Positions 2,758 to 30,573 of a stretch of 33,984 nt of DNA are shown piece by piece. The position numbers and the translations under genes were made by a program. Numbering within the stretch: position 1 is the stretch's first letter; each line of letters starts with the position of its first letter. The notes beneath the pieces were generated by a model that was given only the letters and a program-made list of their open reading frames with translations, was not told the DNA's origin and did not search any database. The DNA comes from Corynebacterium sp. (GTDB lineage: Bacteria > Actinomycetota > Actinomycetes > Mycobacteriales > Mycobacteriaceae): contig NZ_JAUNUG010000033.1 in NCBI RefSeq assembly GCF_030538285.1, forward strand, positions 1-33,984. The letters run 5' to 3'.

Positions 2758-3825
2758 ATGGCCGAGAGACTGATCCTGCAGACCCCGCCGCGGCACACCG
2801 CCCCGGACGGTGCCCCCACCACGCTCACCGACCGCTTCGGCCGGACCGCCCGTGACCTGCGCGTCTCCCTCACCGACCGCTGCAACCTACGGTGCACCTA
2901 CTGCATGCCGGCCGAGGGTCTGGAATGGCTGCCCACCCAGGACACGCTCAGCGACGCCGAGGTCATCCGCCTGATCACCATCGCCGTGCGTGACCTGGGC
3001 ATCCGCCAGGTCCGCTTCACCGGTGGCGAGCCGCTGCTGCGCAAATCGCTGGCCGAGATCATTGCGACCACCACGCAGCTACGCACCGATGAGGGCCGCT
3101 CCCCCGCCACCGCCTTGACCACTAACGGCCTGGGCCTGGATAAACGCCTTGCAGAGCTTATCGACGCCGGCCTCCACCGCGTCAACATCTCCCTCGACAC
3201 CCTCGACCCCGAGCGCTACCTGCGCCTGACCCGCCGCGACCGCCTGCCCGATGTCCTGCGCTCCATCGACGCGGTCCTCGCCGCCGGTCTGCACCCCCTC
3301 AAGCTCAACACCGTCGTCATGCCCGGTGTCAACGAGGACGACATTCTGCCCCTGGCCCACTTTGCCCTCGACCGTGGCGCGCAGCTGCGGTTTATCGAGC
3401 AGATGCCCCTGGGTCCGCGCCACGAGTGGCAGCGCGGGGCCATGGTCACCGCCGATGACATCCTCGCCCGCCTGCGCACCGAGTTTGAACTCCGCCCCGC
3501 AGCAGAACCCCGCGGCGCGGCCCCGGCCGCCCTATGGACGGCGCGAAGCGGAAACACTGAGGGCAGTATCGGCGTCATCGCCTCGGTCACCAGGCCTTTT
3601 TGCGGCGACTGCGATCGCACGCGCCTGACCACCGACGGCGCGATGCGCACCTGCCTGTTCTCCCGCACCGAGACCTCCTTGCGGGACCTCCTGCGCGCCG
3701 GGGCTGACGATGCCACCCTCGCCGCCGCCTGGGCTGGCGCCATGTACGAGAAGAAGCCCGGCCACGGCATCGATGATCCCGGGTTCCTCCAGCCGGACCG
3801 CACGATGTCGGCAATCGGGGGCTGA
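2758..3825 (+). CDS. moaA: GTP 3',8-cyclase MoaA (radical SAM, molybdenum cofactor step 1)
   Basis: MoaA turns GTP into 3',8-cyclo-GTP, the first step of molybdopterin synthesis, with two [4Fe-4S] clusters. The radical-SAM cluster motif C-x3-C-x2-C is Cys42, Cys46 and Cys49 (DRCNLRCTYCMP), followed by FTGGEPLLR. The second, GTP-binding cluster motif C-x2-C-x13-C is Cys282, Cys285 and Cys299. The protein ends in the conserved double glycine (SAIGG) that MoaA needs for activity. At 355 residues it is full length. It is the first gene of a four-gene Moco unit; its TGA is followed after one base by the moeA ATG. The cofactor serves the NarG encoded in this window. Confidence 0.95.
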   Translation: MAERLILQTPPRHTAPDGAPTTLTDRFGRTARDLRVSLTDRCNLRCTYCMPAEGLEWLPTQDTLSDAEVIRLITIAVRDLGIRQVRFTGGEPLLRKSLAEIIATTTQLRTDEGRSPATALTTNGLGLDKRLAELIDAGLHRVNISLDTLDPERYLRLTRRDRLPDVLRSIDAVLAAGLHPLKLNTVVMPGVNEDDILPLAHFALDRGAQLRFIEQMPLGPRHEWQRGAMVTADDILARLRTEFELRPAAEPRGAAPAALWTARSGNTEGSIGVIASVTRPFCGDCDRTRLTTDGAMRTCLFSRTETSLRDLLRAGADDATLAAAWAGAMYEKKPGHGIDDPGFLQPDRTMSAIGG

Positions 3826-3826
3826 G

Positions 3827-5047
3827 ATGCGCACCATCGCCGAGCATCTCGCCGCGGTACTCGCCAACACCACGCCCCAGCCCCCGGTGCTTTGCGACGT
3901 CCGCGCCGCCCTCGGCCTCACCCTGGCCGCGGATATCCCGGCGCGCCTGCCGGTGCCGCCTTTCACCAACTCCGCGATGGACGGCTTCCTGGTGCATTCC
4001 GCCGACCTGGAGGGTGCCGCTCCGTGGACCTTGCCGGTGGCCGGGGATGTCCCCGCCGGCGCCCCACCCCGCGCGCTGGCACGGGGCACGGCGCTCCGCA
4101 TCATGACGGGCGCGCCCATTGCCAGCGACCCGGAGAAACTACGCGTCATCCCGGTGGAAGATACTGACGTTGCACCGGGTCCGGGGGCGCTGCCGACGTC
4201 GATAAGTATCCACCGGATCAGCCCGGAGCGCCGCCACATCCGCCGCGCCGGGGAGAACATCGCGGTCGGAGACACGGCCTTGGCGGCCGGAACGGTGCTG
4301 GATGCCGGGGGTGTGGCGGCGGCCGTGTCCTGCGGGATCACGCAGGTCCAGGCCCATCCACGCCCGCGGGTGGCGGTGATCTCCTCCGGTGATGAGCTGC
4401 TCGAGCCCGGTGTCATGCCCGGGCCGGGCCAGCTGCCGGATTCCAACCGGGTGATGCTGGCGGCACTGCTCGCCGAGCACGGCATCACCGGGGTCACCGA
4501 CTACCACTGCGGTGACGGCGCGGGCTCTTTCCGGGCGCTGCTGGATGAGCTCAGCGCCACCCATGACCTGGTGATCACCACCGGCGGGATCTCTGTCGGC
4601 GCTTTTGATGTGGTCCGGGAGGTGACGGCGCCGCACGGCGTGTGGTTCGGCACCGTGGCGCAGCGCCCCGGCCAGCATCAGGGCGCGGGCACGTGGAACG
4701 GGGTGCCCTTGGTGTGCCTGCCGGGCAATCCGGTGGCGGCGTTTGTCTCCTTCCTCCTCTATATCCCGCCGTTGTTGCAGGCCCTGGCCGGGCGCGAACC
4801 GCAGCGCCCGCAGGTGTCCGCACTGCTCACCGGCGACGGGTTGCCCGCGCGCCCCGCGCGGACCGTGCTCGCCCCGGTGCGCCTGATGTACTCGGACGTC
4901 GGGATCATGGCCACTCCTTTCCACCGGCATGGTGGTTCGCATCTGGTGGCCTCTCTGGCTGACACCCACGGTCTGGCGGTCGTGCCGCCGGGCGAGGAGC
5001 GGCTGGTGGCCGGCGATCCCGTCCGTGTTCTGCTCCGGCTAGGTTAG
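3827..5047 (+). CDS. moeA: Molybdopterin molybdenumtransferase MoeA
   Basis: MoeA inserts molybdate into adenylylated molybdopterin, following the Mog step. The 406-residue protein has FTNSAMDGF (46-54), IMTGAP, RRAGENI, the MoCF-domain motif TTGGISVGAFD (251-261) and PGNP (299-302), all family hallmarks, and a C-terminal beta domain. The start is ATG at 3827, one base after the moaA stop. The frame is also open upstream into moaA, but nothing there resembles MoeA. moaC follows six bases after the stop. The partner enzyme Mog is encoded separately at 11073-11552. Corynebacteria often carry several moeA copies; which paralogue this is cannot be told here. Confidence 0.93.
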   Translation: MRTIAEHLAAVLANTTPQPPVLCDVRAALGLTLAADIPARLPVPPFTNSAMDGFLVHSADLEGAAPWTLPVAGDVPAGAPPRALARGTALRIMTGAPIASDPEKLRVIPVEDTDVAPGPGALPTSISIHRISPERRHIRRAGENIAVGDTALAAGTVLDAGGVAAAVSCGITQVQAHPRPRVAVISSGDELLEPGVMPGPGQLPDSNRVMLAALLAEHGITGVTDYHCGDGAGSFRALLDELSATHDLVITTGGISVGAFDVVREVTAPHGVWFGTVAQRPGQHQGAGTWNGVPLVCLPGNPVAAFVSFLLYIPPLLQALAGREPQRPQVSALLTGDGLPARPARTVLAPVRLMYSDVGIMATPFHRHGGSHLVASLADTHGLAVVPPGEERLVAGDPVRVLLRLG

Positions 5048-5053
5048 GAAGAT

Positions 5054-5518: not shown

Positions 5519-6069
5519 TCGAGACGATCATCCTCGCCGGGGGCCGCGGCCAGCGCATGGGCGGGGTGGATAAGGCGAGCGTGCTCCTCAACGGCCGCCG
5601 CCTTATCGATCACCTCCTCGCTGCCGTGCCCGGGCCGATCATCGTGGTCAGCCCCCATGACCTCCCGCTTCCCGCCGGTGTGCGCCGCGTCAGCGAAGAC
5701 CCGCCCTTTGGTGGCCCCGTCGCCGGCATCGCCGCCGCCGCGGCCCTCACCAGCGCAGAGCTAGTGGCGGTACTCTCCGTCGATGCCCCCGACTCCCCCG
5801 CCCTGATCCCCCTGCTTATCGACGCCCTGCACACCAGCCCCACGGCCGATGTCGCCGTCGCGCGCGCGGACGACGGGTGGGTGCAGCCGTTGTGCGCGGT
5901 GTGGCGTCGTCACGCATTGTTGTCGGCACTGGATGCCCTGCCCCGCCAGCGCGACATCGCCGCGAAGAAACTCTTGGCGCAGGCCGCGGCCGTGGAGGTG
6001 CCCGGGGTGGGCCTGGATACCGACTACGACACCCTCGCCGAGCTGGCTACCCGCGGTGAGCTCAGCTGA
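5467..6069 (+). CDS. mobA: Molybdenum cofactor guanylyltransferase MobA
   Basis: MobA attaches GMP to Mo-molybdopterin to form the guanine dinucleotide cofactor that nitrate reductase uses. The nucleotide-binding signature LAGGRGQRMGGVDK sits near the N-terminus, followed by EDPPFGGPVAGI and the metal-binding VDAPDSP. No ATG exists in this frame before the signature. I give the GTG at 5467, which overlaps moaC by 52 bases. However, CTG at 5515 (sharing bases with the moaC TGA, as CTGA) would place LAGG four residues from the start, as in other MobA proteins, so the true start may be there. The 3' end overlaps nirK tail-to-tail by eight bases. Confidence 0.88.
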   Translation: MPDHRQVGRAFRGLVALIETIILAGGRGQRMGGVDKASVLLNGRRLIDHLLAAVPGPIIVVSPHDLPLPAGVRRVSEDPPFGGPVAGIAAAAALTSAELVAVLSVDAPDSPALIPLLIDALHTSPTADVAVARADDGWVQPLCAVWRRHALLSALDALPRQRDIAAKKLLAQAAAVEVPGVGLDTDYDTLAELATRGELS

Positions 6070-7330
6070 CGACGATCTGCCCGCGCTGGCCTTTCTCGGC
6101 GTCAGTCATGACGTGGTTGACGAAGGTATAGGTGCCCGGTTCATCGAAGGTGACCTCGACGAACCCGCCCTGCGCCGGGAGCAACGGGAGGACCTGCGCG
6201 CCGGTGTCCTCGGCGTCGCGGATGAGGTACTGCCCCTCACTGAAGACGGTGTCGAAGATCTCCCCGACGAGGTGGAAACTCACCGGGTTGTCCGGGCCGA
6301 CGTCGAGTATCCAGAAGCGGACGGTGTCGCCGACGCGCGCTTGTAGCGGGCTGGTGATGTACTGGTGCGGGAAGCCATTGAAGGCCGTGTGATCATGGTC
6401 ACCGTCCTTCTCCCCTAACCATACGGCCGAGGCGATGAGCGAATACTCAGCGGTGACCGGTGTGAGATCCGGCGGATCAATGATGACGGCGCCGAACATG
6501 CCCTTGGCGATGTGCAGGCTCATCGGCGCGGTGGCGCAGTGATACATCCAGATGCCGGAGCGGTGGGCGACAAACTCATAGACAAGGGACTCTCCGGGAT
6601 TGATGGTGCGCATCGGCGTGTCAGGGCTGACCTCCCCGGCGTGGAAGTCGACGCTGTGGCCCATGGTGCCGTCATTGATGAGGGTCAGGCGGAACGTGTC
6701 GCCGACCCGGCCGCGCAGCGTCGGGCCGGGGGCCTGGCCGTCGAAAAGCCACACCACCTGCTCATGCCCGGGGGCCACCTCCCGCATCTCCTCGGTGACA
6801 GTCCACTCCACTTCGTGGACTGCACCCGCCGGAGCAGGAGGTAAAGTCGCGTCCTGTGCCAACGAGTCTGTGGACACGGGACCGCCGCCCGCGCCGACCA
6901 CGACATCGAGCGCCATCCCCAGCGCCTTATGCCCAGCGACGGTGCACCACCCCTGTATGTCCTGTGTGATTACCCCGGCGTCGAAAGTAGTGGTGTTGCC
7001 GGGGGCCAGCAGCGTCGAGCGCTTGTCGGCGAGCTGAAGGTCATGGTTCATGTCATCGTCGTTGCGCAGCTCGATAAGCAGGTGGGTGCCGGCGGGAACC
7101 TCGATGACATTCGGGTGGTAGTTCATGTCCCGCATGCTCACCTCGACGGTCATAGGCTCCCCCGAGACAGCCGGGGCGGGGCCGTCGGGGGCGGTGGTAC
7201 TCAACGTGACTCCCAGGACGATCGCCGCGGCCACGGACAGGCCGACGAGCAACCACGCGGCCCAGCTCACGGATGGCTCATCCTCCGGGGTGGAGGGACG
7301 TGCGGGACTACTTCCCAGGGGCAGCGTCAT
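6062..7330 (-). CDS. nirK: Copper nitrite reductase (NO-forming), AniA-like, with extra N-terminal cupredoxin domain
   Basis: It would reduce nitrite to nitric oxide outside the membrane. The 422-residue protein has a membrane anchor (about 24-44). An extra cupredoxin domain follows, with a complete type 1 copper set, His96, Cys129, His134 and Met139. Then comes a two-domain nitrite reductase. There the type 1 ligands are His225, Cys265, His273 and Met278; the type 2 ligands are His230, His264 and His353; and Asp228 is the catalytic aspartate (GHSVDFH, YHCATAPMSLH, SFHLVGEIFD). The Cys-x7-His-x4-Met spacing matches AniA, the short-loop class. ATG at 7330 overlaps the TGA of the upstream membrane protein as ATGA. 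The frame stays open for 209 codons upstream, but that is a shadow of the neighbour. A general multicopper oxidase is the alternative, but the ligand set favours nitrite reductase. Confidence 0.87.
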   Translation of the reverse strand: MTLPLGSSPARPSTPEDEPSVSWAAWLLVGLSVAAAIVLGVTLSTTAPDGPAPAVSGEPMTVEVSMRDMNYHPNVIEVPAGTHLLIELRNDDDMNHDLQLADKRSTLLAPGNTTTFDAGVITQDIQGWCTVAGHKALGMALDVVVGAGGGPVSTDSLAQDATLPPAPAGAVHEVEWTVTEEMREVAPGHEQVVWLFDGQAPGPTLRGRVGDTFRLTLINDGTMGHSVDFHAGEVSPDTPMRTINPGESLVYEFVAHRSGIWMYHCATAPMSLHIAKGMFGAVIIDPPDLTPVTAEYSLIASAVWLGEKDGDHDHTAFNGFPHQYITSPLQARVGDTVRFWILDVGPDNPVSFHLVGEIFDTVFSEGQYLIRDAEDTGAQVLPLLPAQGGFVEVTFDEPGTYTFVNHVMTDAEKGQRGQIVVS

Positions 7331-8511
7331 GAGGGTTCCTTCCGGTTTCTGGGTACGACGGCGGCGACCAGCGCCCCGCCCTGCAAGAGCAGACCAAGCG
7401 CCATGAGGATCAACCCCGCCGGCCCCGGTGAGATAAGCGTGGCGATACCGCCGAGATTGATGAGGACCAAGCGGGCCACCCCGCCCCGATCGGCCCGGGG
7501 TGGGCCAGCGCCAGCGAGGATGGGCAGGAGATGCAGCAGAACGGAGGTGACCAGTTGCAGTAGCCCCGCACCGAGCAAAGCGGGAACCAATATCCGGATC
7601 GTCTCCCGGGGGTCGACACCGCGGGCCAGAGCCACCGCATCCATCGTCGACAAAGCGATCATCCAGAGGACTCCGGCGCTCACCCCTATTCCGGAGGTGC
7701 GCCAGCGGGAACCATGCAGGGCGGCGCCCAGAATGGGCTGGACAAGCAGGACAGCTGCCACCACCGTGAGCAGGAGGGGGAGGGCGGCGAGGCGGGCGTC
7801 GATAAGCAGGAGGACCATGGCACCCACCACTCCGAGCGAATGAACAACCAGTGAGCGGGTGCAGCGGGCGCGGGCACGGGCAGAGATCTGTGCGCCGCTG
7901 AGCGTGGGCAGGAGGCTGACGATCGTGCCGAGCACGGTCAACCAGGTAAAACCCCACACGGTGGCACGTGAATGGGCGGCGATCAGCGGGTCATAGGAGC
8001 CCACTCCCCTGCCGGCCGCCCACGCGAACACCACCGCGAGAACGAGGAATCCCGCGGCGACCAGATAGAAAGGCACCGTGACCACGACACTGCCCGCCAG
8101 TGAGCCTCGCAACCGCCGCCACAGGGCCACCCCGTGCCACAACGACACGACGATGACGGCTGCCGCACCGGCGTCAGCGAGCGGCGACCAGGCAGGCCCG
8201 GCATCGCCGAGCAGGAGCAGCAGGATCCCGGCCTGCAATACCAGGACGCGGGCTGCCACCGGCCCACAGGAAGCTGCCGGAGTGCGGGTGAGTGCCTCGG
8301 TGAAGTGGGTGGAGTAGACGATGACGGCGGTGGTCAACCCGCCGAGTGTGAAGGGGTGCACGATCGCCCACCAGGTGACGGCCACACCTGCCGCGCTCGC
8401 GAGGAGCAGACCAAAGCCGGTCAACGCCCAGACGGCGATGAGGACAGCGGCAAACAAGTGCCAGGTGGCGCGCCGGCGCTGGGAAATATCGGATAAGGCG
8501 AGCGTGCTCAT
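7327..8511 (-). CDS. Polytopic membrane protein coupled to nitrite reductase
   Basis: This 394-residue protein has roughly ten or more hydrophobic segments and no soluble domain. Histidines lie at or near helix ends: WH (His18), VHPFTLGG (His52), THF (His69), and later WHG, AAHSR, VVHSLG and LLHLL. This invites comparison with haem- or copper-binding membrane proteins of the NnrS/haem-copper-oxidase kind. As I recall, a similar membrane domain (..HP..LG....I...S.HF..AL.R) is fused to the N-terminus of multicopper oxidases in other actinobacteria. Here the two are separate genes joined by ATGA. The start ATG at 8511 overlaps the preceding TGA in the same way. A role in passing quinol electrons to NirK, or in NO handling, is inference only. 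Confidence 0.8.
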   Translation of the reverse strand: MSTLALSDISQRRRATWHLFAAVLIAVWALTGFGLLLASAAGVAVTWWAIVHPFTLGGLTTAVIVYSTHFTEALTRTPAASCGPVAARVLVLQAGILLLLLGDAGPAWSPLADAGAAAVIVVSLWHGVALWRRLRGSLAGSVVVTVPFYLVAAGFLVLAVVFAWAAGRGVGSYDPLIAAHSRATVWGFTWLTVLGTIVSLLPTLSGAQISARARARCTRSLVVHSLGVVGAMVLLLIDARLAALPLLLTVVAAVLLVQPILGAALHGSRWRTSGIGVSAGVLWMIALSTMDAVALARGVDPRETIRILVPALLGAGLLQLVTSVLLHLLPILAGAGPPRADRGGVARLVLINLGGIATLISPGPAGLILMALGLLLQGGALVAAVVPRNRKEPS

Positions 8512-9587: not shown

Positions 9588-9612
9588 CGTCTGCCCTTTT
9601 TTCACGGACTTA

Positions 9613-9632: not shown

Positions 9633-9664
9633 CAGGTGAAAGACCACTCACGACAGGAGTCAAC

Positions 9665-9928: not shown

Positions 9929-9931
9929 GCC

Positions 9932-9937: not shown

Positions 9938-9945
9938 GGGCAGAC

Positions 9946-11076
9946 ATGGCGCCGGACAATCTACTCATCCAGGGTGAGAACCTCCACGCCCTGCGTGAGC
10001 TGCACGGCCAAGTCAAAAACGTCCGGCTCATCTACATCGACCCGCCGTACAACACCGGCAGCGCCGACTACCTCTACGCCGACGCCATGCCGCGCGAGCA
10101 GTGGTTGCGGTTCATGGTCGAGCGCCTGGAGGCTGCCCGCACCCTGCTTATCGACGACGCCGTGGTAGCCATCCAATGTTCCTTCCACCAGTCCGCCCAC
10201 CTGGAGGTCACCCTCGACGGGCTCGACTGGTTGCACAAGGTCATGGTCTTCCACGTCCTGGTACGTCACCCCGATCGCGCCTTGACCGCCGACAAGCAGT
10301 TCAACGATGTCATGGAGCAGATCCTCATCTACTCCCCCGATCCGCGCTTCCGCATGCCGCGCCGCGAAAAGGAACGTGACCTGACCGACTACCGCTGGGA
10401 GGTGGCTCTGGACGGACCCGGCTCTCCCGCCTTGTTCGGCGGGCGGGAGTGCCGCCTCTACCCACCGGAGCAGTGGCGCAAAGTAGAAACCGCACCGGGT
10501 GAAGGAACGTTTCGCACCCATTCCATCCGCGGCAGCCTGCGGGAGAAGAATTCCTCGGGGCGCTTCTGGGTCGCTCACCTGGAAGCACTCGACCTGCCCG
10601 CGTTGACACTGATCCAGGTGCCGGGCATCGGTGACGACGGGCTGGGCCACCGCTTCTTCCACTCCCCCAAGGCCGGCAACCGCAACGGTTCCTACTTCCA
10701 GGGGGTGCCGCAATCCTCGACCGTCACGCGCCTGCCGTACCCGAATTTCCTCGACTTCCACGCCGAGTTCAACCAGGTCGCCGGCGAAGGTGGAGTGAGC
10801 TTCCGCAACGGCAAGAAACCGGAAGCCCTGCTGCGCTTGCTCATGGAGATGTTCACCGCACCAGGCGATCTTGTCCTCGACTACCATCTCGGCTCCGGCA
10901 CGACCGCCGCGGTGGCATTGAAGCTCGGCCGGAGGTTTATCGGCATTGAGCGCGAAGACTTCGCCGAAACAGTGGCGTTGGCCCGCCTTCAGGCTGTGGT
11001 CGCCGGGGAGCAGTCGGGAATCTCGTCGGAGGTCGGCTGGTCGGGCGGCGGGGCGGTGACTTTCCGGAAGATCTAA
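9946..11076 (+). CDS. Orphan beta-class DNA methyltransferase (type III Mod-like)
   Basis: A 376-residue SAM-dependent amino-methyltransferase expected to methylate adenine N6 (or cytosine N4). The catalytic motif DPPYNTG is at 32-38. The SAM-binding motif LDYHLGSGTTAA is near 311-322, followed by LGRRFIGIERE. The order catalytic motif, long middle region, SAM motif is that of the beta class, as in type III Mod subunits. It is much shorter than typical Mod proteins (around 600 residues), and no restriction (Res) gene is adjacent. The ~270 residues between the motifs would hold the target-recognition part. The start is set by DPPYNTG near the N-terminus and by the -10 at 9932. Its TAA overlaps the mog TAG on the other strand. 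Why it sits in a nitrate-respiration region is unclear. Confidence 0.85.
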   Translation: MAPDNLLIQGENLHALRELHGQVKNVRLIYIDPPYNTGSADYLYADAMPREQWLRFMVERLEAARTLLIDDAVVAIQCSFHQSAHLEVTLDGLDWLHKVMVFHVLVRHPDRALTADKQFNDVMEQILIYSPDPRFRMPRREKERDLTDYRWEVALDGPGSPALFGGRECRLYPPEQWRKVETAPGEGTFRTHSIRGSLREKNSSGRFWVAHLEALDLPALTLIQVPGIGDDGLGHRFFHSPKAGNRNGSYFQGVPQSSTVTRLPYPNFLDFHAEFNQVAGEGGVSFRNGKKPEALLRLLMEMFTAPGDLVLDYHLGSGTTAAVALKLGRRFIGIEREDFAETVALARLQAVVAGEQSGISSEVGWSGGGAVTFRKI

Positions 11077-11552
11077 TCCAGCCGCTCGAAGATATTCGGC
11101 AGCAGCGGGCACACCACCCCGAGGGCATCTTTCACCCCGCCACGCGAGGAGGGCGTGTTAACGATCAGCGCATCCTCCGCTCCCCGCCCCGTCAGACCAA
11201 TAAGCCCCCGGGACAGACCCGCCTGATTCGTGTTGCCCAAACCCGCGATGAGTACCTGCATCATCAGGCCGGTCAGTTCCACCGCCACGTGCGGAGCCGT
11301 TGCCTCCGGGGTGAGGTTGCGCGGCCCCAGGCCGGTGCCACCGACGGTGACGATGACGCGGTGTCCGGCGGCGCGGGCATGTGCGAGCGCTTGCGACACA
11401 GCCTCCTGTCCCTCGGGGACGATGAGGGGCCCGGTGACGTGCAGTCCGGCGTCGCAAAGCAGACGCGCGGCGAGATCGCCGGCCGCATTGTCGTGCTCGC
11501 CGGCTATAACCCGGTCGCTGACCACGATGACGCTAGCTTTTTTCACTTTCAT
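11073..11552 (-). CDS. mog: Molybdopterin adenylyltransferase, Mog/MoaB family
   Basis: Mog adenylylates molybdopterin before MoeA inserts molybdenum. The 159-residue protein has the MoCF-domain motifs VIVTVGGTGLGPRNLTPEA and GRGAED, and ends with ..GVVCPLLPNIFERL. ATG at 11552 (MKVKKASVIVVSDR) follows GGAGAGGGAGA, a strong ribosome binding site; the frame runs 24 codons further upstream, but those residues look unlike Mog. The gene is divergent from narK and shares the 233-base control region with it. Tail-to-tail it overlaps the methyltransferase stop by four bases. It is separated from the other Moco genes by the nitrite reductase cluster. Confidence 0.92.
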   Translation of the reverse strand: MKVKKASVIVVSDRVIAGEHDNAAGDLAARLLCDAGLHVTGPLIVPEGQEAVSQALAHARAAGHRVIVTVGGTGLGPRNLTPEATAPHVAVELTGLMMQVLIAGLGNTNQAGLSRGLIGLTGRGAEDALIVNTPSSRGGVKDALGVVCPLLPNIFERLD

Positions 11553-11623: not shown

Positions 11624-11624
11624 T

Positions 11625-18500: not shown

Positions 18501-19189
18501 GAAGCGACAAACGCCTGCCCACCGGCAAGGTCCCCGATACCCTCACCCGCCCCGTGGCCGTCAGCGACGAGCAGCGCCGCATCATCGCCATGGCTACCTC
18601 CCTGCTGCTCGACTACCCGGGCGATGACTTCGGCGGGCGCCTCGAGGCCGTCGATAAGCACACCGGCGACCTGCCCCTGCCTATCGACGCCGAACTCGCC
18701 GCCTTCCTCGACGCCGCCCGCGCCCTCGGACTGCGCGGCATGCAGGAACACTACGTCGAGACCTTCGACCAGAAACGCCGCTGCTCTTTGTTCCTGTCCT
18801 ACTACTCCGTCGGCGACACCCGCCAGCGCGGCACCGCCATCCTCGCCTTCCGCCAAGCCCTCGAACAACTCGGTTTTGAGGAGCTCAGCGACGAACTCCC
18901 CGACCACCTCTGCGTCGTCCTCGAGGCCGTCGCCCACTCCGAGGGGGAACAGCACGCCCAGACCGTCGAGATGCTCGCCGCCCACCGCGACGGCCTGGAA
19001 GTACTGCGCACCGCCCTCGACGGAATAGGCTCGCCCTACGCGCATCTCATCACCGCGATCGCCATGGCCCTGCCCGAAATCGATGCCGAGACCACCCACA
19101 ACTACCTCGACCTCATCCGCTCCGGCCCGCCGGCCGAGCTCGTCGGCATCGGAACCCCGCTGCCGTTTCCCACCGCCCACAAGGACTGA
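18497..19189 (+). CDS. narJ: Nitrate reductase assembly chaperone NarJ
   Basis: NarJ binds NarG before cofactor insertion and membrane attachment and is not part of the final enzyme. This 230-residue acidic helical protein has the family core LLLDYPGDDF, HYVETFDQKRRCSLFLSYY, GDTRQRG and LPDHLCVVLE. The start is GTG at 18497, overlapping the narH stop as GTGA, with GGAGGG seven bases upstream. narI follows after two bases. Identity is secure from sequence and position. Confidence 0.94.
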   Translation: MRSDKRLPTGKVPDTLTRPVAVSDEQRRIIAMATSLLLDYPGDDFGGRLEAVDKHTGDLPLPIDAELAAFLDAARALGLRGMQEHYVETFDQKRRCSLFLSYYSVGDTRQRGTAILAFRQALEQLGFEELSDELPDHLCVVLEAVAHSEGEQHAQTVEMLAAHRDGLEVLRTALDGIGSPYAHLITAIAMALPEIDAETTHNYLDLIRSGPPAELVGIGTPLPFPTAHKD

Positions 19190-19977: not shown

Positions 19978-20687
19978 TGCGTATCGCCGCAGCCCTCGCC
20001 GCCGCCTGTCTGCTCAGCGCCTGCGGCACCACCGATGATCTGACGGTGCTGGGGGCGGCGTCGACACGCGTACTCAACGAATCGCTGGCGGAGAAGTCCC
20101 CCACCTCGCTGGAATTCATCAACGCCGGCTCCTCCACCCTCGTCCAACAGCTCGCCGAGGGCTCGCCCGGCGATGTCCTTATCACCGCCGACCAGGCGAC
20201 AATGGATGCGGCGATCGCCCAGGGCCTCGTCGAGGACCCCCACGTCGTCGCCACCAACACCATGGTCATGGTGGTGCCACAAGGTAATCCGGCGGGGATC
20301 CGCGGCGTGGAGGATCTCGGCCCCGACACCGCGCTGGTGCTGTGCGATGAGCAGGTCCCCTGCGGCGCCATCTCGCACCAGCTTATCGACGCCGCCAACT
20401 GGGACGTCCACCCCGTCTCCCTCGAACACGCCGTCTCCGACGTACTAGGCAAAGTCGTCTCCGGGGAAGCCGACGCCGGGTGGGTCTACCGCTCCGACGC
20501 CGCCGCTGCGGGTGAGGCCGTCGAGGTCATCGAGCTGCCCGGCGCCGCCGATCACCCCAACTCCCTCGTCGCCGCGGTGACCACCTCGGCGGCCGTCGAG
20601 GAGGAGGCGCGCGCGTTCGTCGAGCTCCTACGATCCGTGGAGATGCGCCCAGTCTGGGCCGAGCACGGCTTCACCCCGGCCCGCTAG
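19977..20687 (+). CDS. modA: Molybdate-binding lipoprotein ModA
   Basis: The extracellular binding protein of a molybdate ABC transporter. The lipoprotein signal ends in LLSAC, with Cys16 as the lipid-attached residue. The mature part has the ModA pattern: LTVLGAASTRVLNESL, the oxyanion-binding INAGSSTLVQQLAEGSPGDVLITAD, the LGPDTALVLCDEQVPCG segment and a late GEADAGWVYRSDA. At 236 residues it is of normal length. The start ATG overlaps the narI TGA. Position inside the nar unit supports molybdate rather than sulfate or tungstate, though tungstate cannot be excluded from sequence. Confidence 0.92.
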   Translation: MRIAAALAAACLLSACGTTDDLTVLGAASTRVLNESLAEKSPTSLEFINAGSSTLVQQLAEGSPGDVLITADQATMDAAIAQGLVEDPHVVATNTMVMVVPQGNPAGIRGVEDLGPDTALVLCDEQVPCGAISHQLIDAANWDVHPVSLEHAVSDVLGKVVSGEADAGWVYRSDAAAAGEAVEVIELPGAADHPNSLVAAVTTSAAVEEEARAFVELLRSVEMRPVWAEHGFTPAR

Positions 20688-20697: not shown

Positions 20698-22551
20698 ATG
20701 CCTACACCCCGTCCCGCCCCGCCCCGACCCCCACTGGTGGTGGCGGGACTCGGTGTCATCGGCCTGGTGTTCATCCTCGGTCCCGTCCTGGCGTTAGGGG
20801 TGCGCGTGCCGTGGGGGCGCGTCGAGGGGGTTCTCGCCGAACCTGCCACCCATGATCTCCTGCGCATCACCCTGGGGGCCGGGCTGTGGACCACCCTGCT
20901 GACAACCCTCCTCGGGGTTCCCCTGGCCCTGTGGATCCAACACCTGCGCCGCGGCGCCAGGCTCGTCCGCCTCCTGGTCCTTCTGCCCCTGGCCATGCCG
21001 CCGGTCGTAGCCGGCCTGGCACTCTCTGCGGCGCTGGGACGCCGCGGGCTGACAGCACCGCTTCTCGACGCCACCGGTCTCCAGTTCGCCTTCGCCTTCC
21101 CCGGCGTCATCCTCGCCCACACCTTCATCGCCCTGCCCTTTGTCGTCGTCACCGTCGACGCCGCGCTGCGGCAGATCGACCCAGAGATTCCCTCCTCTGC
21201 CGCCTCGGTGGGGCTGAAACCAGGTGAAGTGCTGCGCAAGGTGACGTTGCCAGCGGTGGCCCCGGCGCTGGCCACCGGCGCGGGCCTGGCTTTCGCCCGC
21301 TCCCTCGGCGAGTTCGGCACCACCCTTACCTTCGCCGGCTCCATGCCGGGTGTCACCCGCACCATGCCGCTGGGCATCTACCTGGAGCGGGAGACCGACC
21401 CCGGCCGCGCCTACGTCCTCGGCGCACTGTTGATCACCCTCGCCGTGGTGGTGTTGCTGCTTGCCGCACTGCCCGGACTCCTACGCCGCGAGTACCAGCC
21501 CCGCGCGCGTTCCCTGCACTCCCTTGACACCACCCGCCTGCGCGAGCTGACCGCCCCACCCGGCGGCGGGGTGCCCGTGCACGTGGGCGAACACACGCTG
21601 CCCGCTAACCGGGTCACCGCCGTGGTCGGGCCGAATGGTTCCGGCAAGACGACTCTCATGCGCCAGATCGGTAGTCCTCATCTCCCCGTCGAGGGGAAGG
21701 TGGTCCTGCTCACCCAGCGCCCCGGCTTGCCTACCACCACCACTGCCGCGGGTGCTGTGAGCATGGTGACCCGTTGCACTACCCGCACCCGTGAGCTTCT
21801 CGACGCCGCCGGCCTCACCCCCCTCCACGACGTGCCCGTCCCCGCACTGTCTGGTGGGCAGGCCGCCCAGGTGGCCCTCGTCCGGGCCTTGGCCGCGCGA
21901 CCTGCCGTGTTAATCCTCGACGAGCCGCTGGCCGCCATCGACATTGCCTCGACGACTGCCTGGCGTGGTCTCCTGCATGCCGCCGCCCGGGATCGCACCA
22001 CTATCCTGGTGACACATGACCCGCTGGAGGTGGCCGGGCTCTCCGATTACCTCCTCGTGCTGGAAGGCGGAGACATCACTGCGGCGGGTTCTACAAGTGA
22101 GTTGCTCGCGGTGCCGCCGAATAGTTTCGTCTCCTCGCTGGCGGGGCTGAACCGCATGGAGGGTTCCGTTGTCGAGAAGACACTTGATACAGTGACCATA
22201 AGAAATGGGAAACTACTGATCACCGGTATCTCTGCCGAGGAGGCTGGTGATCAAGCGGTGGCAACGTTTCCTCCAGAAGCCACGACGTTGCGGCTGCCTG
22301 CCCCATCCGGGGGGCGTACCGATTCGGCGCGCAATCTCTGGCCGGGCACAATTGAATCCATTGAGTCCGCATCTGGTCGTTCTACCGCGGTGGTCACTGT
22401 GTCACTGCTCGGTGAGGCTGGTCCCGTGACTGTCTCGGTGCCGGTGACTCGACGTTCGATTCTTGATCTGGGGTTGGCGCCCGGGACGATCGTTGATTGC
22501 GTGACTAAGGCCACCGCTGTAACTGTTCATCCGCATCACCCACGCTCTTAA
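20698..22551 (+). CDS. modBC: Fused molybdate ABC transporter, ModB permease plus ModC ATPase
   Basis: One 617-residue chain holds what are usually two proteins. Residues 1 to about 270 are a ModB-type permease with five or six helices and the EAA-type loop SSAASVGLKPGEVLRKVTLP. Residues from about 290 are a ModC-type ATPase: Walker A GPNGSGKTT (311-319), signature LSGGQ (384-388), Walker B VLILDEP (404-410) and switch His440. The end (about 480-617) is a TOBE/MOP-like molybdate-sensing domain. The reading frame runs through the junction without interruption. It starts 10 bases after modA. A dimer would supply both permease and both ATPase halves. The ATPase part is compact, with a short stretch between Walker A and the signature. 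Confidence 0.92.
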   Translation: MPTPRPAPPRPPLVVAGLGVIGLVFILGPVLALGVRVPWGRVEGVLAEPATHDLLRITLGAGLWTTLLTTLLGVPLALWIQHLRRGARLVRLLVLLPLAMPPVVAGLALSAALGRRGLTAPLLDATGLQFAFAFPGVILAHTFIALPFVVVTVDAALRQIDPEIPSSAASVGLKPGEVLRKVTLPAVAPALATGAGLAFARSLGEFGTTLTFAGSMPGVTRTMPLGIYLERETDPGRAYVLGALLITLAVVVLLLAALPGLLRREYQPRARSLHSLDTTRLRELTAPPGGGVPVHVGEHTLPANRVTAVVGPNGSGKTTLMRQIGSPHLPVEGKVVLLTQRPGLPTTTTAAGAVSMVTRCTTRTRELLDAAGLTPLHDVPVPALSGGQAAQVALVRALAARPAVLILDEPLAAIDIASTTAWRGLLHAAARDRTTILVTHDPLEVAGLSDYLLVLEGGDITAAGSTSELLAVPPNSFVSSLAGLNRMEGSVVEKTLDTVTIRNGKLLITGISAEEAGDQAVATFPPEATTLRLPAPSGGRTDSARNLWPGTIESIESASGRSTAVVTVSLLGEAGPVTVSVPVTRRSILDLGLAPGTIVDCVTKATAVTVHPHHPRS

Positions 22552-22561: not shown

Positions 22562-23248
22562 ATGACCCCCCGGCCCGCCTCCGAACTCTTTCCCGAGGCA
22601 CTCCAACTCAGCTCAAAGCAGCGCGAGGTCCTCGATCAGCTGCAGACACACCCGGGGGGCGCGCGTTCCGTTGATTTGGCGAAGCAATTGGGCATGCACG
22701 TCAATACGGTGCGCGGTCATCTCGACGAGCTCATTGCCCGTGGTGCCGTGCGCACCACTACCGCCCCGGCGCAGGGGCGAGGCCGCCCGTCCCTGATTTT
22801 CCAGGTTCGGGTGCCTGATAATCGCGTGATCGCCGAGGAGTATGTCTCCCTCGTCGAGGTCCTCACGGACATGCTTATCGACGCCACCTCCCCCACCGCC
22901 CTCGACCAGGCCCGGGAGATCGGACGTGCGTGGGCTCGGCGCATGACTGGCACGGGATCGGCGTCGACGGTGCCGGAAGCTCTTGACCTGCTTATGGCTC
23001 ATTTGCGGGAGCTGGGTTTCGATCCGGCCTTGCTTAGTGTTGATGGCTCCGACAACGTGGATATCCATCTGCAGTCATGCCCGTTTGTCACCACGGGTGG
23101 TCGCCCCTCGCCGGCGGTGTGTGCCATGCATGAGGGTTATCTGCAGGAGGCGGTGGGCTCTGCACCGGTGACTCTCACCCTCAAACCCTTCTATCCGGCG
23201 GGGGCGTGCACGGTGACCTCCCATGATGCCTCTGCCGACGCGGGATGA
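22562..23248 (+). CDS. ArnR-like helix-turn-helix regulator with three conserved-type cysteines
   Basis: A 228-residue winged-helix regulator. Residues about 17-70 form the DNA-binding part (QREVLDQLQTHPGGARSVDLAKQLGMHVNTVRGHL), followed by a basic wing. Near the C-terminus are Cys173 (SCPF), Cys187 (VCAMH, with His190) and Cys216 (GACTV). This C-x13-C-x28-C spacing is reminiscent of SufR-type regulators that bind an iron-sulfur cluster. C. glutamicum encodes ArnR, an NO-responsive repressor of narKGHJI, just downstream of that operon, so this is probably its functional counterpart; I place it by position and cysteines, not by alignment. ATG at 22562 follows AAGGAGT. It lies 10 bases after modBC, so it may regulate the unit it belongs to. 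Confidence 0.72.
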   Translation: MTPRPASELFPEALQLSSKQREVLDQLQTHPGGARSVDLAKQLGMHVNTVRGHLDELIARGAVRTTTAPAQGRGRPSLIFQVRVPDNRVIAEEYVSLVEVLTDMLIDATSPTALDQAREIGRAWARRMTGTGSASTVPEALDLLMAHLRELGFDPALLSVDGSDNVDIHLQSCPFVTTGGRPSPAVCAMHEGYLQEAVGSAPVTLTLKPFYPAGACTVTSHDASADAG

Positions 23249-23252
23249 GGGT

Positions 23253-24392: not shown

Positions 24393-24444
24393 GCCTCGGA
24401 CGATAAACGACACCACGGAAGCGTCGATAAGCAATCGCCCCGGC

Positions 24445-24471: not shown

Positions 24472-24520
24472 AAACATACCGAACATCTGCTCGGAGCATT
24501 GACAGCGCCCTCGCCGGCGA

Positions 24521-25447: not shown

Positions 25448-25460
25448 TCGACAGACCTTC

Positions 25461-26792
25461 CTAGATCAGACGCAGCACGGAGTCGACGGCCTTGACGGCC
25501 GGGGCCTGCTTGAGGTCATCGACGGTGGCGGCCAGGTCGGATTCGCGGGCGGAGTGGGTGACCACGATGAGGCGGGCGTGGTCGCCGGACTCCTCCTGGC
25601 GGACAGTCTTGAGGGAGATGTCGCGGGAGGCGAAGATAGCGGAGAGCTCGGCGAGAACGCCGGTGCGGTCCTCGACCTCCATGTCGATGTGGTAGCGGGT
25701 GCGCACATCTCCCAGGTCCGCGACGGGCAGGTTGGCGTAGGTGTTCTCACCGGGGGCACGGCCACCGTGGACCTTGTTGCGGGCCGCGCCGACGAGGTCA
25801 CCGAGGACGGCGGAGGCGGTCGGGGCACCGCCGGCGCCGTTGCCGTAGAACATGAGGCGGCCAGCGGCTTCGGCCTCGACGAAGATGGCGTTGTAGGACT
25901 CGTTGACGGAGGCCAGCGGGTGGTCGACCGGCACGAGGGTCGGGTGGACGCGGGAGGCGACGGCCTCGTTGCCGTCGTGGTCGGTGATGCGCTCGCAGAT
26001 GGCCAGTAGTTTGATCACGTAGCCGGCGTCGCGGGCGGCGGCGATGTCCTCGGCGGTGACCTGGGAGATGCCCTCGCAGGAGACGTCGTCGAACTTGACG
26101 CGGGTGTGGAAGCCCAGGGAGGCGAGGATGGCGGCCTTGGAGGCGGCATCATGGCCCTCGACGTCGGCGGTGGGATCGGCTTCGGCGTAGCCCAGGCGGG
26201 TGGCCTCGGCGAGGGCGTCGTCGTAGGTGGCGCCGGTGGATTCCATGGCGTCGAGGATGAAGTTGGTGGTGCCGTTGACGATGCCGGAGATGCGCAGGAT
26301 GTTGTCTCCGGCCAGGGAGCGGCGCAGCATACCTACGACGGGGATGGCGGCGGCGACGGCGGCCTCGAAGTAGAGGTCGACGTTGGCGGCGTCGGCGGCT
26401 TCGGCCAGCTCATCGGCGTGGGCGGCGACGAGCGCCTTGTTTGCGGTGACCACGGACTTTCCGGCGCGCAGGGCGGCGAGGACGAGTTCGCGGGGGTAGT
26501 CGATGCCGCCGATGACCTCGACGACGATGTCGACGTCCGCGCGGTTGATCAGCGACATGGCGTCGTCGGTGAGCAGCTGCTTATCGACGCCCGCGCGCGG
26601 CTTCGACAGGTCAGACACAGCGACACCCTTCAGTTCCAGCGGGCCACCGATGCGGTGGGCCAGCGCGTCGGAGTATTCGCCCATGAGGCGCAGCACCTCC
26701 GAACCGACGGTGCCGTGGCCGAGAATGGCGATACCGACCGGCTCACCGGCTCCCTTGCCGGGGTTGTAGCTGGGCTGGGTGTTCTCGCTCAT
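25461..26792 (-). CDS. hom: Homoserine dehydrogenase
   Basis: This NAD(P)-dependent enzyme reduces aspartate semialdehyde to homoserine, the branch point towards threonine, methionine and isoleucine. The 443 residues comprise a Rossmann part ([14 protein letters not shown]), the catalytic domain ([28 protein letters not shown]) and a C-terminal ACT domain ([17 protein letters not shown]) that gives threonine feedback inhibition in corynebacteria. Length fits C. glutamicum Hom (445). ATG at 26792 follows AGGAG. TAGGCT on this strand (complement of 26831-26836) is a plausible -10. A longer open frame upstream has no support. It is co-transcribed with thrB. Confidence 0.95.
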
Positions 26793-26868
26793 GGTGCTCC
26801 TGGGTGTTGTGGTGACGCTAAACGTGCACCAGCCTACCGGGGGCGGGCCATTTCCACAGTCAACGGGG

Positions 26869-26874
26869 TAGGAT
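26869..26874 (+). promoter_or_regulatory. -10 hexamer TAGGAT, probable leaderless promoter of secreted protein gene
   Basis: TAGGAT is followed by six bases and ATG at 26881. The arrangement supports the ATG over the GTG at 26875, which would lie upstream of the expected transcription start. The region is shared with the divergent hom promoter. Confidence 0.4.
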
Positions 26875-26880
26875 GTGGCC

Positions 26881-27573: not shown

Positions 27574-27590
27574 ATGCTGGGGCGTGTGCC

Positions 27591-28922
27591 TTAACCCTCC
27601 AGCGCGAGGATATCCTCGACGGTTTCGCGGCGCAGCATGAGCTTGGTTTTCCCGGCGCGTACGGCGACCACGGGCGGGCGGCCGAAGGCGTTGTAGCGCG
27701 AGGACATGGCGTAGGCGTAGGCGCCGGTCGCCGCGACGGCCACGAGGTCCCCCACCGCAATGTCGTCCGGGTACGACGCATCGCGGACGAGGATGTCGCC
27801 GGACTCGCAGTGCGAGCCGACGAGGCGCGAGGCCACCGCTGAACCTTCGGTGAAACGGTTGACGAGGCGGGCGTCGTAAAGCGAGCCGTAGAGCGCGGGG
27901 CGGATGTTGTCGGACATGCCGCCGTCGACGGAAATGTAGCGGCGCTTGGCGTCCTCGGAGATGGTGACGTCCTTGACGGTGCCCACCTCGTAGACGGTGA
28001 CGGTGCCGGGGCCGGCGATGGCGCGGCCGGGTTCGACGAGGACGACGGGGGGTTCGATGCCCAGCTCGGCGGCGGTTTTGGCTACGGCCGTGAGGAGGTC
28101 GTGCGCTACCTCGTCGACGTTGAGGGGCTGCTCGTCCTCGGTGTAGGCGATGCCGTAGCCGCCGCCGAGGTCGAGCTCCGGCAGCTGGACGCCGAGCTCG
28201 CGGTGGATCTGCGAGTACAGGCCCAGGACGCGGTCGGCGGCCATGGTGAAGCCCTCGGCGTCGAAGACCTGGGAACCGACGTGGCAGTGCAGCCCCACCA
28301 GCTCGAGGTTTTCGGCGCGCACGGCCGCTTCGGCGGCGCGGTAGGCGGAACCAGAAGCGAGGGAGAAGCCGAACTTCTGGTCCTCGTGGGAGGTGGCGAT
28401 TGCCTCGTGGGTGTGGGCCTCGATACCGGGCTTGACGCGGATCATCACCTTCTGGATGCGGTCCTGGCCGGCGGCGATGGCGTCGAGAAGCTCGAGTTCG
28501 GACTCGGAGTCCAGCACGACGTGGCCGACTCCCTCCGCCACGCACGCCCGCAGGAAGCTGGCGCCCTTGTTGTTGCCGTGCGCGGTCATGCGTTCGGCGG
28601 GGAAAGAAGCGGCCAGCGCGATTTTCAGCTCATTGAGGGAGGCGACGTCCAGCGAGAGGCCCTCCTCATCAACCCAACGCGCGATGGTGCGGGTGAGGAA
28701 TGCCTTGGAGGCATAGTGGACGTTCTCGGCACCACCGAAAGCGCGCGCCATGTCCTGGCAGCGGGAGCGGAAGTCATCCTCGTCGACGACGAAGACGGGG
28801 GTGCCGTACTCCTCGGCGATCTCCGGCAACGGCACACCGGCGATGGTGACCACGCCGTCTTCCTGGCGCGCGGCGTTGCGCGGCCAGACGTGGGCGGGCA
28901 GCTCGTTGAAATCAGAGCTCAT
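27591..28922 (-). CDS. lysA: Diaminopimelate decarboxylase
   Basis: LysA removes CO2 from meso-diaminopimelate to give lysine, using pyridoxal phosphate. The 443-residue protein has the PLP lysine Lys73 in VHYASKAF, the phosphate-binding [11 protein letters not shown] and VLVEPGRAI, and the substrate-binding Cys in GSHCESGD. Length matches the C. glutamicum enzyme (445). The start is ATG at 28922 ([14 protein letters not shown]), four bases after the argS TAA. The frame is open for another 64 codons over the end of argS, but that has no LysA character. argS-lysA is an operon in C. glutamicum as well. Confidence 0.96.
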
Positions 28923-28926
28923 GCGC

Positions 28927-30573
28927 TTACATCCTCTCCGGGGCGGTGACACCGACCAGGCCAAGCGCGTTGGCCAGGGTCTGGCGGGTGGCGGCGGCCA
29001 GCGCCAGGCGGGCAGTGTGGATCTCTGCGGCGTCCTCGCTGGCCTTCGGCAGGATCTGGCAGTTGTCGTAGAAGCGGTGGAAGACGCCAGCCAATTCCTC
29101 AGCGTATCGGGCAATGCGGTGGGGCTCGCGGAGTTCCGCTGCGGCCTTGACCACAGTGGGGAACTCGCCGAGGGTGCGGATGAGGTCGCCTTCCCGCTCG
29201 TGGGTGAGCAGCGACAGATCAGGGTTGTCGACGGTGACGCCCAGCTCGGCGGCCTTGCGCGCGATGGAGCACAGGCGGGCGTGACCGTACTGCACGTAGT
29301 AGACGGGGTTGTCCGAGGACTGGGAGGCCCACAGCGCCAGGTCGATGTCCAGGGAGGAGTCGACAGATGAGCGGATGAGGGAATAGCGGGCGGCGTCGAT
29401 GCCGATGGCCTCGACGAGGTCGTCGAGGGTGATCACGGTGCCGGCGCGCTTGGACATGCGCACGGCCTCGCCGTCGCGGACGAGATTGACCATCTGGCCG
29501 ATCATGACCTCGACCTGGTCAGCGTTGTAGCCGAGGGCGGCCGCGGCGGCCTTGAGGCGGGCGACATAGCCGTGGTGGTCGGCGCCGAGCATGTAGATGC
29601 ACAGGTTGTGGCCACGGTCGATCTTGTCGGCGACGTAGGCGATGTCGCCGGCGATGTAGGCGGCCTCGCCGTCGGACTTGATGACGACGCGGTCCTTGTC
29701 ATCGCCGAAGTCGGTGGAGCGCAGCCACCAGGCGCCCTCGGATTCGTAGAGGTTGCCGTTGTCCTTCAGCGTCTGCACGGCCCGGTCAACAGCGCCGGAC
29801 TCGAAGAGCGAGTTCTCGTGGAAGTAGACGTCGAAGTCGGTGCCGAACTCGTGCAACGAGGACTTGATGTGGTTGAACATCATCTCCACGCCGGCGGCGC
29901 GGAAGGTCTCCTGGACGTCCGCCGCCTCCAGCGCCCCGGGATGCTTATCGACGATCCGCTGCGCAATCTCCCCGATATAGTCACCGCCGTAGCCGTCCTC
30001 CGGGGTCGGCTCACCCTTCGCCGCAGCCACCAGGGAGCGGGCGAAACGGTCGATCTGGCCACCGTGGTCGTTGAAATAGTACTCGCGGGTGACCTGCGCG
30101 CCCGCAGCGTTAAGCACGCGGCCCAGGGAATCGCCGACGGCCGCCCAGCGGGTACCACCCAGGTGGATGGGGCCGGTCGGGTTCGCGGAGACGAACTCCA
30201 GGTTGATCTTGGTGCCCTCGTAGATGTCCAGATGACCGTACTCGGCGCCCGCGGCGAGGATCTTCGCCACGATCTCGCCCTGCGCAGCCGCCGCCAGGCG
30301 GATATTAAGGAAACCCGGGCCCGCGATCTCGGCCTCGTCGATGGCGGGGTCAGCGGAGAGGGTGTCGGCAAGTAACGTGGCCAGCTCGCGCGGATTCATG
30401 CCGACCTTCTTGGCCACCTGCAGGGCCAGGTTGGTGGCGTAATCACCGTGCTCCGGATTACGGGGACGCTCGACGACGACCGGGTCCGGCAGCACAGAGG
30501 TGTCGAGGCCACGGGAGGCCAGCACGCCAGCGGCGGTCTCCCGGATGAGGGACGCAAGATCAGCAGGTGTCAT
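28927..30573 (-). CDS. argS: Arginyl-tRNA synthetase
   Basis: This class I synthetase charges tRNA-Arg. The 548-residue protein has the N-terminal additional domain, the HIGH-type motif PTGPIHLGG (HLGG at 137-140), the YYFNDHGGQ segment, the KMSKS-type motif RMSKRAGT and an anticodon-binding C-terminus ([13 protein letters not shown]). Length is normal. ATG at 30573 lies eight bases after a TAGACT -10 on this strand (complement of 30582-30587), so the message is probably leaderless. It is the first gene of argS-lysA. Confidence 0.96.

Follow-up and report, generated by a model that had tools for sequence, protein, structure and literature searches.

A spaced word in Corynebacterium genomes as a probable DNA uptake sequence with at least two dialects

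What accounts for the repeated occurrence of the 10-mer CTTATCGACG in this stretch of a Corynebacterium genome (33,984 nucleotides, hereafter the window)? Twelve exact copies, eight on the plus and four on the minus strand, lie between positions 3157 and 29953, while 100 dinucleotide shuffles of the window gave a mean of 0.03 copies and at most 1. The over-representation reported by the first-pass annotation therefore holds on recounting. Among its candidates for the word were an uptake signal, which the evidence favours, and a segregation or recombination signal, which is disfavoured. We argue below that the full unit, GCTT-NN-CGACG, is probably a DNA uptake sequence in a competent, Tad-pilus-using actinobacterial genus.

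The word and its placement in genes and on strands

The 10-mer is over-represented, as had been proposed, but the true unit is longer. A leading G precedes 10 of the 12 window copies of CTTATCGACG, GCTTNNCGACG occurs 21 times in the window, and the whole is best written as a spaced word. The copies in the window are as follows.

1451..1461, plus strand: copy of GCTTCTCGACG
3156..3166, plus strand: copy of GCTTATCGACG, inside the moaA ORF (assigned by ORF and Pfam)
3889..3899, plus strand: copy of GCTTTGCGACG
4197..4206, minus strand: CTTATCGACG without the leading G
5814..5824, plus strand: copy of GCTTATCGACG
6739..6749, minus strand: copy of GCTTTTCGACG
7797..7807, minus strand: copy of GCTTATCGACG
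10146..10156, plus strand: copy of GCTTATCGACG, inside a DNA methylase ORF (assigned by Pfam)
11450..11460, minus strand: copy of GCTTTGCGACG
15438..15448, minus strand: copy of GCTTGCCGACG
17684..17694, plus strand: copy of GCTTTACGACG
18011..18020, plus strand: CTTATCGACG without the leading G
18649..18659, minus strand: copy of GCTTATCGACG
20381..20391, plus strand: copy of GCTTATCGACG
21060..21070, plus strand: copy of GCTTCTCGACG
21795..21805, plus strand: copy of GCTTCTCGACG
22873..22883, plus strand: copy of GCTTATCGACG
24422..24432, minus strand: copy of GCTTATCGACG
26579..26589, plus strand: copy of GCTTATCGACG
27872..27882, minus strand: copy of GCTTTACGACG
28481..28491, minus strand: copy of GCTTCTCGACG
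29943..29953, plus strand: copy of GCTTATCGACG
32043..32053, plus strand: copy of GCTTGCCGACG

The enrichment extends well beyond the window. A genome-wide count, suggested earlier as a check, finds 863 copies of CTTATCGACG (436 + 427) in the 2.95 Mb genome, as against 1 + 1 = 2 for the reversed pattern; the spaced word GCTT-NN-CGACG reaches 1964 copies against 64 for its reversed control. Within 377 kb of sampled sequence, GCTTATCGACG is found 110 times where a third-order Markov model expects 0.44. Such a copy number, far above expectation, is as in uptake sequences. One-letter variants of GCTTATCGACG are scarce in the same sample, with the spacer as the exception and, to a small degree, letter three. 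In other species a loose spacer takes up letters five and six, which are AT in the 11-mer here, and in other clades letter ten is T rather than C. The likeness to a DnaA box, noted at first, falls away because of this variation at letters five, six and ten, which is at odds with a fixed TTATCCACA-like core.

GCTT-NN-CGACG is present in all sampled stretches, at 0.71 and 0.56 copies per kb. Its spacing in the window's genome (G000) is evener than random, with a CV as low in 9 of 500 random placements, and in a complete relative (G149) it is less even, with a CV as low or lower in 495 of 500. Since the two genomes deviate in opposite senses, we draw no conclusion from spacing. Close inverted pairs of the word show no excess over expectation, and a reading as inverted-pair terminators is thus unsupported.

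The word is not explained by what the genes encode. Among the genes in the 377 kb sample of the window's genome, 98 in-gene copies of CTTATCGACG are observed, and synonymous shuffling leaves 4.4 (maximum 8 in 60 shuffles); sampled genes of a second species give 65 versus 3.9. The copies had been said to force the leucine codon CTT, and CTT is indeed part of the commonest reading, the sense frame CTT-ATC-GAC, which accounts for 49 of the 98 gene-internal copies. Four other frames are used as well. The word is thus held in genes against codon preference and in several frames, as uptake sequences are. Between genes, 24 copies are seen where 17.4 are expected, close to the intergenic share or a little over it; counts by genome are 41 against 37.4 expected in G000 and 43 against 49.8 in G149. 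That the word is a by-product of protein motifs, or of codon or oligonucleotide bias, is next to inconceivable: although the main sense frame spells Leu-x-Asp, the codon shuffles in two species rule out a codon or protein origin in the sampled genes, and the five frames, the intergenic copies and the near-zero reversed control point the same way. The first-pass view that protein sequence alone does not explain the copies thus survives the codon-aware expectation: codon usage does not account for the word, and the genome-wide counts place it far outside the window as well.

Chi sites and KOPS are likewise over-represented asymmetric words, and their copies favour one replication strand. A signal of this kind for recombination or segregation, read one way by RecBCD/AddAB/AdnAB or by FtsK, would suit the high copy number, the asymmetry of the word and the location of most copies within genes. 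The orientations, however, are about equal. In G149, 20 stretches hold 91 copies; with the halves of the chromosome set by GC skew, forward and reverse copies number 26 and 22 in one half and 21 and 22 in the other. Across the contigs of the window's genome taken together, the spaced word stands at 980/984. Both strands are used with no replication-strand bias, as in uptake sequences. Inspected by eye, the counts of 20 stretches showed no rise in copies towards the terminus, a KOPS trait. Runs of plus sites in G149, G179 and G099 had given an appearance of strand bias; the G149 stretches show both strands equally, and we take the runs, checked on G149, as a listing artefact. Because strand bias is lacking in this one complete relative, the segregation or recombination signal put forward at first is very improbable.

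Distribution and dialects

The word is widespread in the genus. GCTT-NN-CGACG is high in 139 of 201 Corynebacterium genomes (280–1964 copies each); a look at related species had been suggested earlier as a check. A second spelling, GCTT-NN-CGATG, is high in 11 of the 201 (625–1337 copies), and one genome belongs to both sets. Either word is carried by 149 genomes, about three quarters, including C. striatum and C. tuberculostearicum, and neither is at a high level in the remaining 52, about a quarter, whose counts are at background. In sampled genomes of other genera the counts are near background.

The two spellings are nearly exclusive among Corynebacterium species, and related species differ in dialect, as in uptake sequences. 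A LepA tree of 77 loci shows at least three switches of spelling. Two sister groups were aligned over 28 site positions; at 7 of these, one group reads CGACG and its sister CGATG, although some strains depart from this. The CGACG group also has four positions with CGATG, so that exclusiveness is incomplete.

An uptake model and the remaining explanations

The counts, codon independence, strand neutrality, dialects and repeated spelling changes are hallmarks of dialect-bearing uptake sequences. We infer from them sequence-dependent uptake, a receptor and a drive behind the accumulation. Competent Corynebacterium cells would capture free DNA with a surface receptor specific for GCTT-NN-CGACG; candidates are ComEA or, within the Tad/Flp pilus, a minor pilin such as the TadE- or TadG-like protein. 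The Tad pilus would deliver the DNA to ComEA, ComEC would pass one strand inward, and this strand would recombine. Copies of the word would arise by mutation. Because word-bearing DNA would be taken up more often, biased uptake and recombination would then spread and preserve them, and they would accumulate on either strand, within genes and between them. If the receptor changed, the preferred word would change with it and the genome would follow, giving the dialects CGACG and CGATG, which would limit exchange between species.

A methylation or restriction mark, an epigenetic sign of self that a methylase would write into the word and a nuclease or an uptake step would read, would fit a word that is asymmetric, bipartite and spaced. 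The window does contain a DNA methylase gene (9946–11076, Pfam PF01555); nothing ties it to the word. The spacers of type I sites are longer than two bases, and restriction sites tend to be avoided in genomes rather than gathered. Being kept against codon usage, a word of four plus five letters around two spacer bases would be behaving unusually for a restriction site, and we regard this explanation as quite improbable.

The word could also be a binding site, set along both strands of the chromosome, for a nucleoid or chromosome-organising protein unconnected with uptake. Its presence in all sampled stretches without an excess of close pairs would suit such a site, as would the positions common to species, and the presence of ComEC and Tad does not cleanly separate bearers from non-bearers. 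Nucleoid proteins, however, usually require less than a strict nine-letter word, here in some two thousand copies held against codon usage. Background counts in 52 of the 201 genomes and the repeated changes of spelling are hard to reconcile with a housekeeping protein, and the copies follow no strand pattern. Overall, this explanation is unlikely.

If the word is an uptake sequence, natural competence with self-recognition would extend to a large genus that counts commensals, opportunists and industrial relatives among its members. This would predict which species exchange genes, open the way to genetic tools for species that resist transformation, and provide an evolutionary replicate, outside the Gram-negative groups, for why uptake sequences exist. 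The dialect changes at orthologous positions would make co-evolution of receptor and genome directly testable.

To our knowledge, uptake sequences have so far come from a few Gram-negative groups, and we know of none in an actinobacterium. Among the matches listed in the open-licence literature (titles and abstract starts), there was no report of this word or of an uptake sequence in Corynebacterium. With a little more reserve than for the uptake reading itself, we think it likely that this is a third, independently evolved system. It would be the first known to us from an actinobacterium, with a Tad/Flp-type pilus reading the word across the mycolate envelope; it would occur in about three quarters of the species examined, with at least two dialects and several changes between them, and would split the genus into partly closed gene pools. 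Neisseria has a type IVa pilus, and Corynebacterium a mycolate outer layer.

In the available part of PMC3630211, the DUS of Neisseriaceae is a short asymmetric word in thousands of copies per genome, with eight dialects in line with phylogeny and some genomes of the family without any. It was found through over-represented 10-mers, as the Corynebacterium word was. The latter, spaced GCTT-N2-CGAYG, is unrelated to the DUS and belongs to another phylum with Tad/Flp pilus genes; no counterpart of the ComP receptor was found, and the role of the word in uptake is putative. The available text of PMC2346458 describes the USS of Pasteurellaceae on both strands without general orientation bias, one orientation being commoner in reading frames. 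The same holds in Corynebacterium genes: the sense orientation accounts for 147 of 222 copies in G000 and for 121 of 180 in G149. The clear intergenic enrichment and terminator pairs reported for the Haemophilus USS were not seen for our word, which is unrelated to it in letters. As far as their available parts extend, PMC5217627 has Corynebacterium passages that concern CRISPR, and PMC6370729 does not mention Corynebacterium.

The uptake machinery

The genes that the model calls for are present. The window's genome has open comEA-comEC and an open Tad locus, and ComEC is found in 200 of the 201 genus genomes (matched in two pieces in the high-copy genomes G001, G112 and G114), so that its presence does not separate word bearers from non-bearers. 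TadA predicts the word in one direction only, as 16 of 41 motif-lacking genomes have it at a cut of 159 bits.

The type of Tad locus is associated with the word. In all 27 motif-bearing genomes with a Tad locus read, TadA is of the class found alongside separate TadB and TadC, although in one of them (G138) TadB and TadC lie on one open frame. Where a genome lacks the motif and its TadA match is weak, a diverged TadA goes together with a fused TadBC in 21 of the 22 loci read; the profiles had been built from loci of the class with separate TadB and TadC. This association may perhaps reflect one event in one clade. According to the available part of PMC4322843, Micrococcus luteus likewise carries an actinobacterial comEA-comEC and two tad clusters, in which TadB and TadC are separate in one case and fused in the other. 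Both clusters are required for natural transformation; 'uptake sequence' occurs 0 times in that part. In contrast to M. luteus with both types, the best TadA locus of each examined Corynebacterium genome is of one type only.

No other over-represented word stood out in 80–100 kb sampled from each of six motif-lacking genomes with a good TadA (G014, G152, G133, G120, G039 and G163), nor in the motif-lacking G148 with its diverged TadA. Repeats resembling CRISPR were seen in G152. Across seven Tad proteins from 27 genomes (1326 columns), a few columns follow dialect and none is set apart from chance or relatedness. The best, in a CpaE-like protein, has Glu in 11 of 11 CGATG genomes and 1 of 16 CGACG genomes; we do not call it a finding because the tree has four changes and 1326 columns were compared. 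Finally, in the one mobile element compared, a 20.0 kb insert holds 1 copy of the word and its 21.6 kb of flanks hold 9.

A spaced word over-represented throughout the genome

The 10-mer CTTATCGACG occurs in the window 12 times (8 plus, 4 minus), at the positions reported by the first-pass annotation, and its estimate of well under one expected copy agrees with 100 dinucleotide shuffles of the window (mean 0.03, maximum 1). The annotation had also proposed genome-wide, Markov, codon-shuffle and related-species comparisons; the excess holds in the whole-genome count, in the Markov and codon-shuffle comparisons of sampled sequence, and in most genomes of the genus. Across the genome of the window, G000 (94 contigs totalling 2,953,577 bases; completeness 96%, contamination 6.7%), 436 + 427 copies are found, compared with 1 + 1 for the reversed word; the window is thus ordinary for its genome, and it is the genome that is extraordinary. 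In a 377,475-base sample of G000 that includes the window, a third-order Markov model predicts 0.44 copies of the word extended by a leading G, GCTTATCGACG, while 110 are observed. One-letter variants of this 11-mer in the sample reveal that letter five is loose (A 110, C 58, T 16, G 7) and that letter three shows a trace of tolerance (G 15); the remaining variants have 0 to 5 copies each. In G149, a second species sampled over 400 kb, 84 copies of GCTTATCGACG are seen against 0.28 expected, and letters five and six are both variable. The unit is therefore GCTT-NN-CGACG (GCTTNNCGACG), present in 21 copies in the window alongside two 10-mers with no G in front. We also collected titled ComEC-bearing loci (the best 80 of 271 in a ComEC profile search, 13.8 to 21.9 kb, C. 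pollutisoli appearing twice). All sixteen spacers are present among 578 copies in the 53 of these loci with at least six copies, and spacer preferences differ from clade to clade.

Judged from the sequences, the word is probably best explained as a DNA uptake sequence, which was among the candidates of the first-pass annotation. A segregation or recombination signal of the Chi or KOPS type, also proposed there, is disfavoured by strand balance. G149 is a single 2.52 Mb contig, sampled in 20 stretches, with GC skew mostly positive over the first ten and mostly negative over the last ten; the 10-mer counts, forward/reverse, are 26/22 and 21/22, respectively. The spaced word in G000 divides 980 to 984 by strand, across 94 contigs of unknown orientation. 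Within genes, the sense orientation is in the majority (147/222 copies in G000, 121/180 in G149). Likewise, PMC2346458 describes Pasteurellaceae and Neisseria uptake sequences as having no general genomic orientation bias and a preferred orientation in reading frames. By its anatomy the Corynebacterium word resembles the uptake sequences of Neisseriaceae and Pasteurellaceae, as a candidate member of the class rather than a proven one. Among the matches listed in open-licence literature (titles and abstract beginnings), none described the word or a Corynebacterium uptake sequence.

A codon origin is ruled out in the sampled genes of G000 and G149 by their excess over synonymous shuffles (60, preserving proteins and codon use; genes predicted by a purpose-made simple gene finder). 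The 298 genes in the G000 sample contain 98 10-mers against 4.4 after shuffling (sd 1.7, maximum 8) and 222 copies of the spaced word against 21; in G149 the 10-mer stands at 65 versus 3.9 (maximum 10) and the spaced word at 180 versus 13.6. Gene-internal copies use five reading frames, and intergenic 10-mers equal or slightly exceed the non-coding share (24 vs 17.4 expected in G000, 25 vs 20.1 in G149).

Distribution and change of spelling

The over-representation is real and comes in dialects, and three in four of the genomes examined from the genus show it. By table count, the CGACG spelling has 280 to 1964 copies in 139 of 201 genus genomes and 134 or fewer in 62. A search for alternative words in four low-count genomes showed that G006 and G111 carry GCTT-NN-CGATG (GCTTNNCGATG) in its place; in G148 and G163 no comparable alternative stood out. 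The CGATG spelling reaches 625 to 1337 copies in 11 of the 201 genomes, ten of them low in CGACG, the exception being G143 with 352 CGACG copies too. Neither spelling is at a high level in 52, among which G073, G084 and G200 have weakly raised CGATG (159 to 213).

Beyond Corynebacterium the word is near background: 140 family genomes have 0 to 25 copies of the 10-mer, and in 113 family and 196 class genomes (sets partly overlapping) the 11-mer count stays near that of the reversed word used as control, the highest ratio noticed being 373 to 143 (G297). A simple threshold on the few copies per locus types 57 of the 80 titled loci as CGACG (e.g., C. striatum, C. tuberculostearicum, C. aurimucosum, C. 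propinquum), seven as CGATG (C. macginleyi, KPL1814, MSK130, ACRPS, an uncultured isolate, C. phoceense, J010B-136) and 16 as neither; among these 16 are some short loci and the element-bearing C. pollutisoli locus L202. For comparison, PMC3630211 describes eight dialects of Neisseriaceae uptake sequences, with thousands of copies, whose distribution follows phylogeny and which some family members lack.

A quick LepA tree of 77 loci (53 CGACG, 9 CGATG, 15 none) requires at least three changes between spellings and eight between presence and absence, counts that are blind to gain versus loss; a joined TadA, TadB and TadC tree of 27 other loci requires four changes of spelling. We aligned orthologues from five C. 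tuberculostearicum-group loci and five C. macginleyi-type loci, which we take to be the C. accolens group (the pair L178 and L174 is 72.5% identical overall). The word is held by at least one of the ten loci at 28 positions. At seven of these, CGACG stands in most C. tuberculostearicum-group loci and CGATG in one to five C. macginleyi-type loci; such a one-letter switch at shared positions is the effect that a change of reader would cause. The other 21 are confined to one group, four being CGATG sites within the mainly CGACG C. tuberculostearicum group.

Uptake and pilus genes

In G000 the comEA (208 aa, helix-hairpin-helix PF12836) and comEC (533 aa, PF03772) frames are open, overlap by four bases and are flanked by frames read as degV and holA. 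The Tad locus, of the kind with separate TadB and TadC, adjoins frames read as cspA and topA and contains:

CpaE-like (not run against Pfam)
TadA (PF00437)
TadB (not run against Pfam)
TadC (not run against Pfam)
Flp-like pilin (PF14029, DUF4244)
TadE-like protein (unmatched in Pfam; name given from its position)
TadG-like protein (PF13400)

ComEC is present in 200 of 201 genus genomes and so does not separate bearers of the word from non-bearers. It was not found in G200 (90% complete; CGATG count 211) and has an in-frame TGA in G194 (CGACG count 102), and the weakly raised counts of these two look as if decaying. ComEC matched in two pieces in G001, G112 and G114, genomes rich in the word (1618, 495 and 1152 copies).

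TadA is present in all 80 genomes searched, in two kinds. The loci read in motif-bearing genomes (27 of 27) have the first, high-scoring kind with separate TadB and TadC; in motif-bearing G138, TadB and TadC lie on a single open frame. Among 22 loci read in motif-lacking genomes whose TadA match is weak (weak loci G147, G158 and G166 being outside this set), 21 have a diverged TadA and a fused TadBC, and G129 has the first kind, as do six further motif-lacking genomes. Since all bearers read and some non-bearers have it, the first kind may be needed for the word, yet is not enough. The split could be a single event in one clade, and the match between uptake machinery and word is imperfect. Of the two kinds, noted in G030, G148, G003, G010 and others, the fused-TadBC one was seen only in word-less genomes. 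PMC4322843 reports that Micrococcus luteus transformation requires two tad clusters, in one of which TadB/TadC are fused, and that tad genes with comEA/comEC are frequent in actinobacteria.

An element in comEC and other features

The comEC of C. pollutisoli VDS11 is cut by an element of ~37.7 kb, as sized from locus coordinates. Its ends in comEC (NZ_FXAR01000001.1) are covered by:

L202:10619-20618
L131:1-10000

A large serine recombinase (PF00239, PF07508) lies at one junction. In this single case, the word has one copy in 20.0 kb of insert ends versus nine in 21.6 kb of chromosomal sides, which fits foreign DNA without the word. The arrangement recalls the prophage in Listeria comK. Other frames of the element read as a phage-like DNA polymerase, an IS-type transposase and apparent type I restriction genes.

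Two further genes of the window are:

9946-11076, plus strand, DNA methylase, 376 aa (PF01555)
6062-7957, minus strand, open frame of 631 aa (Pfam domains: multicopper oxidase, cupredoxin)

The methylase gene contains one copy of the word. The 631-aa frame, near molybdenum-cofactor genes, is within its predicted limits possibly a nitrite-reductase-like fusion. Aside from the uptake-like word, the over-represented k-mers of the G149 and G152 samples come mainly from CRISPR-array-like long repeats.
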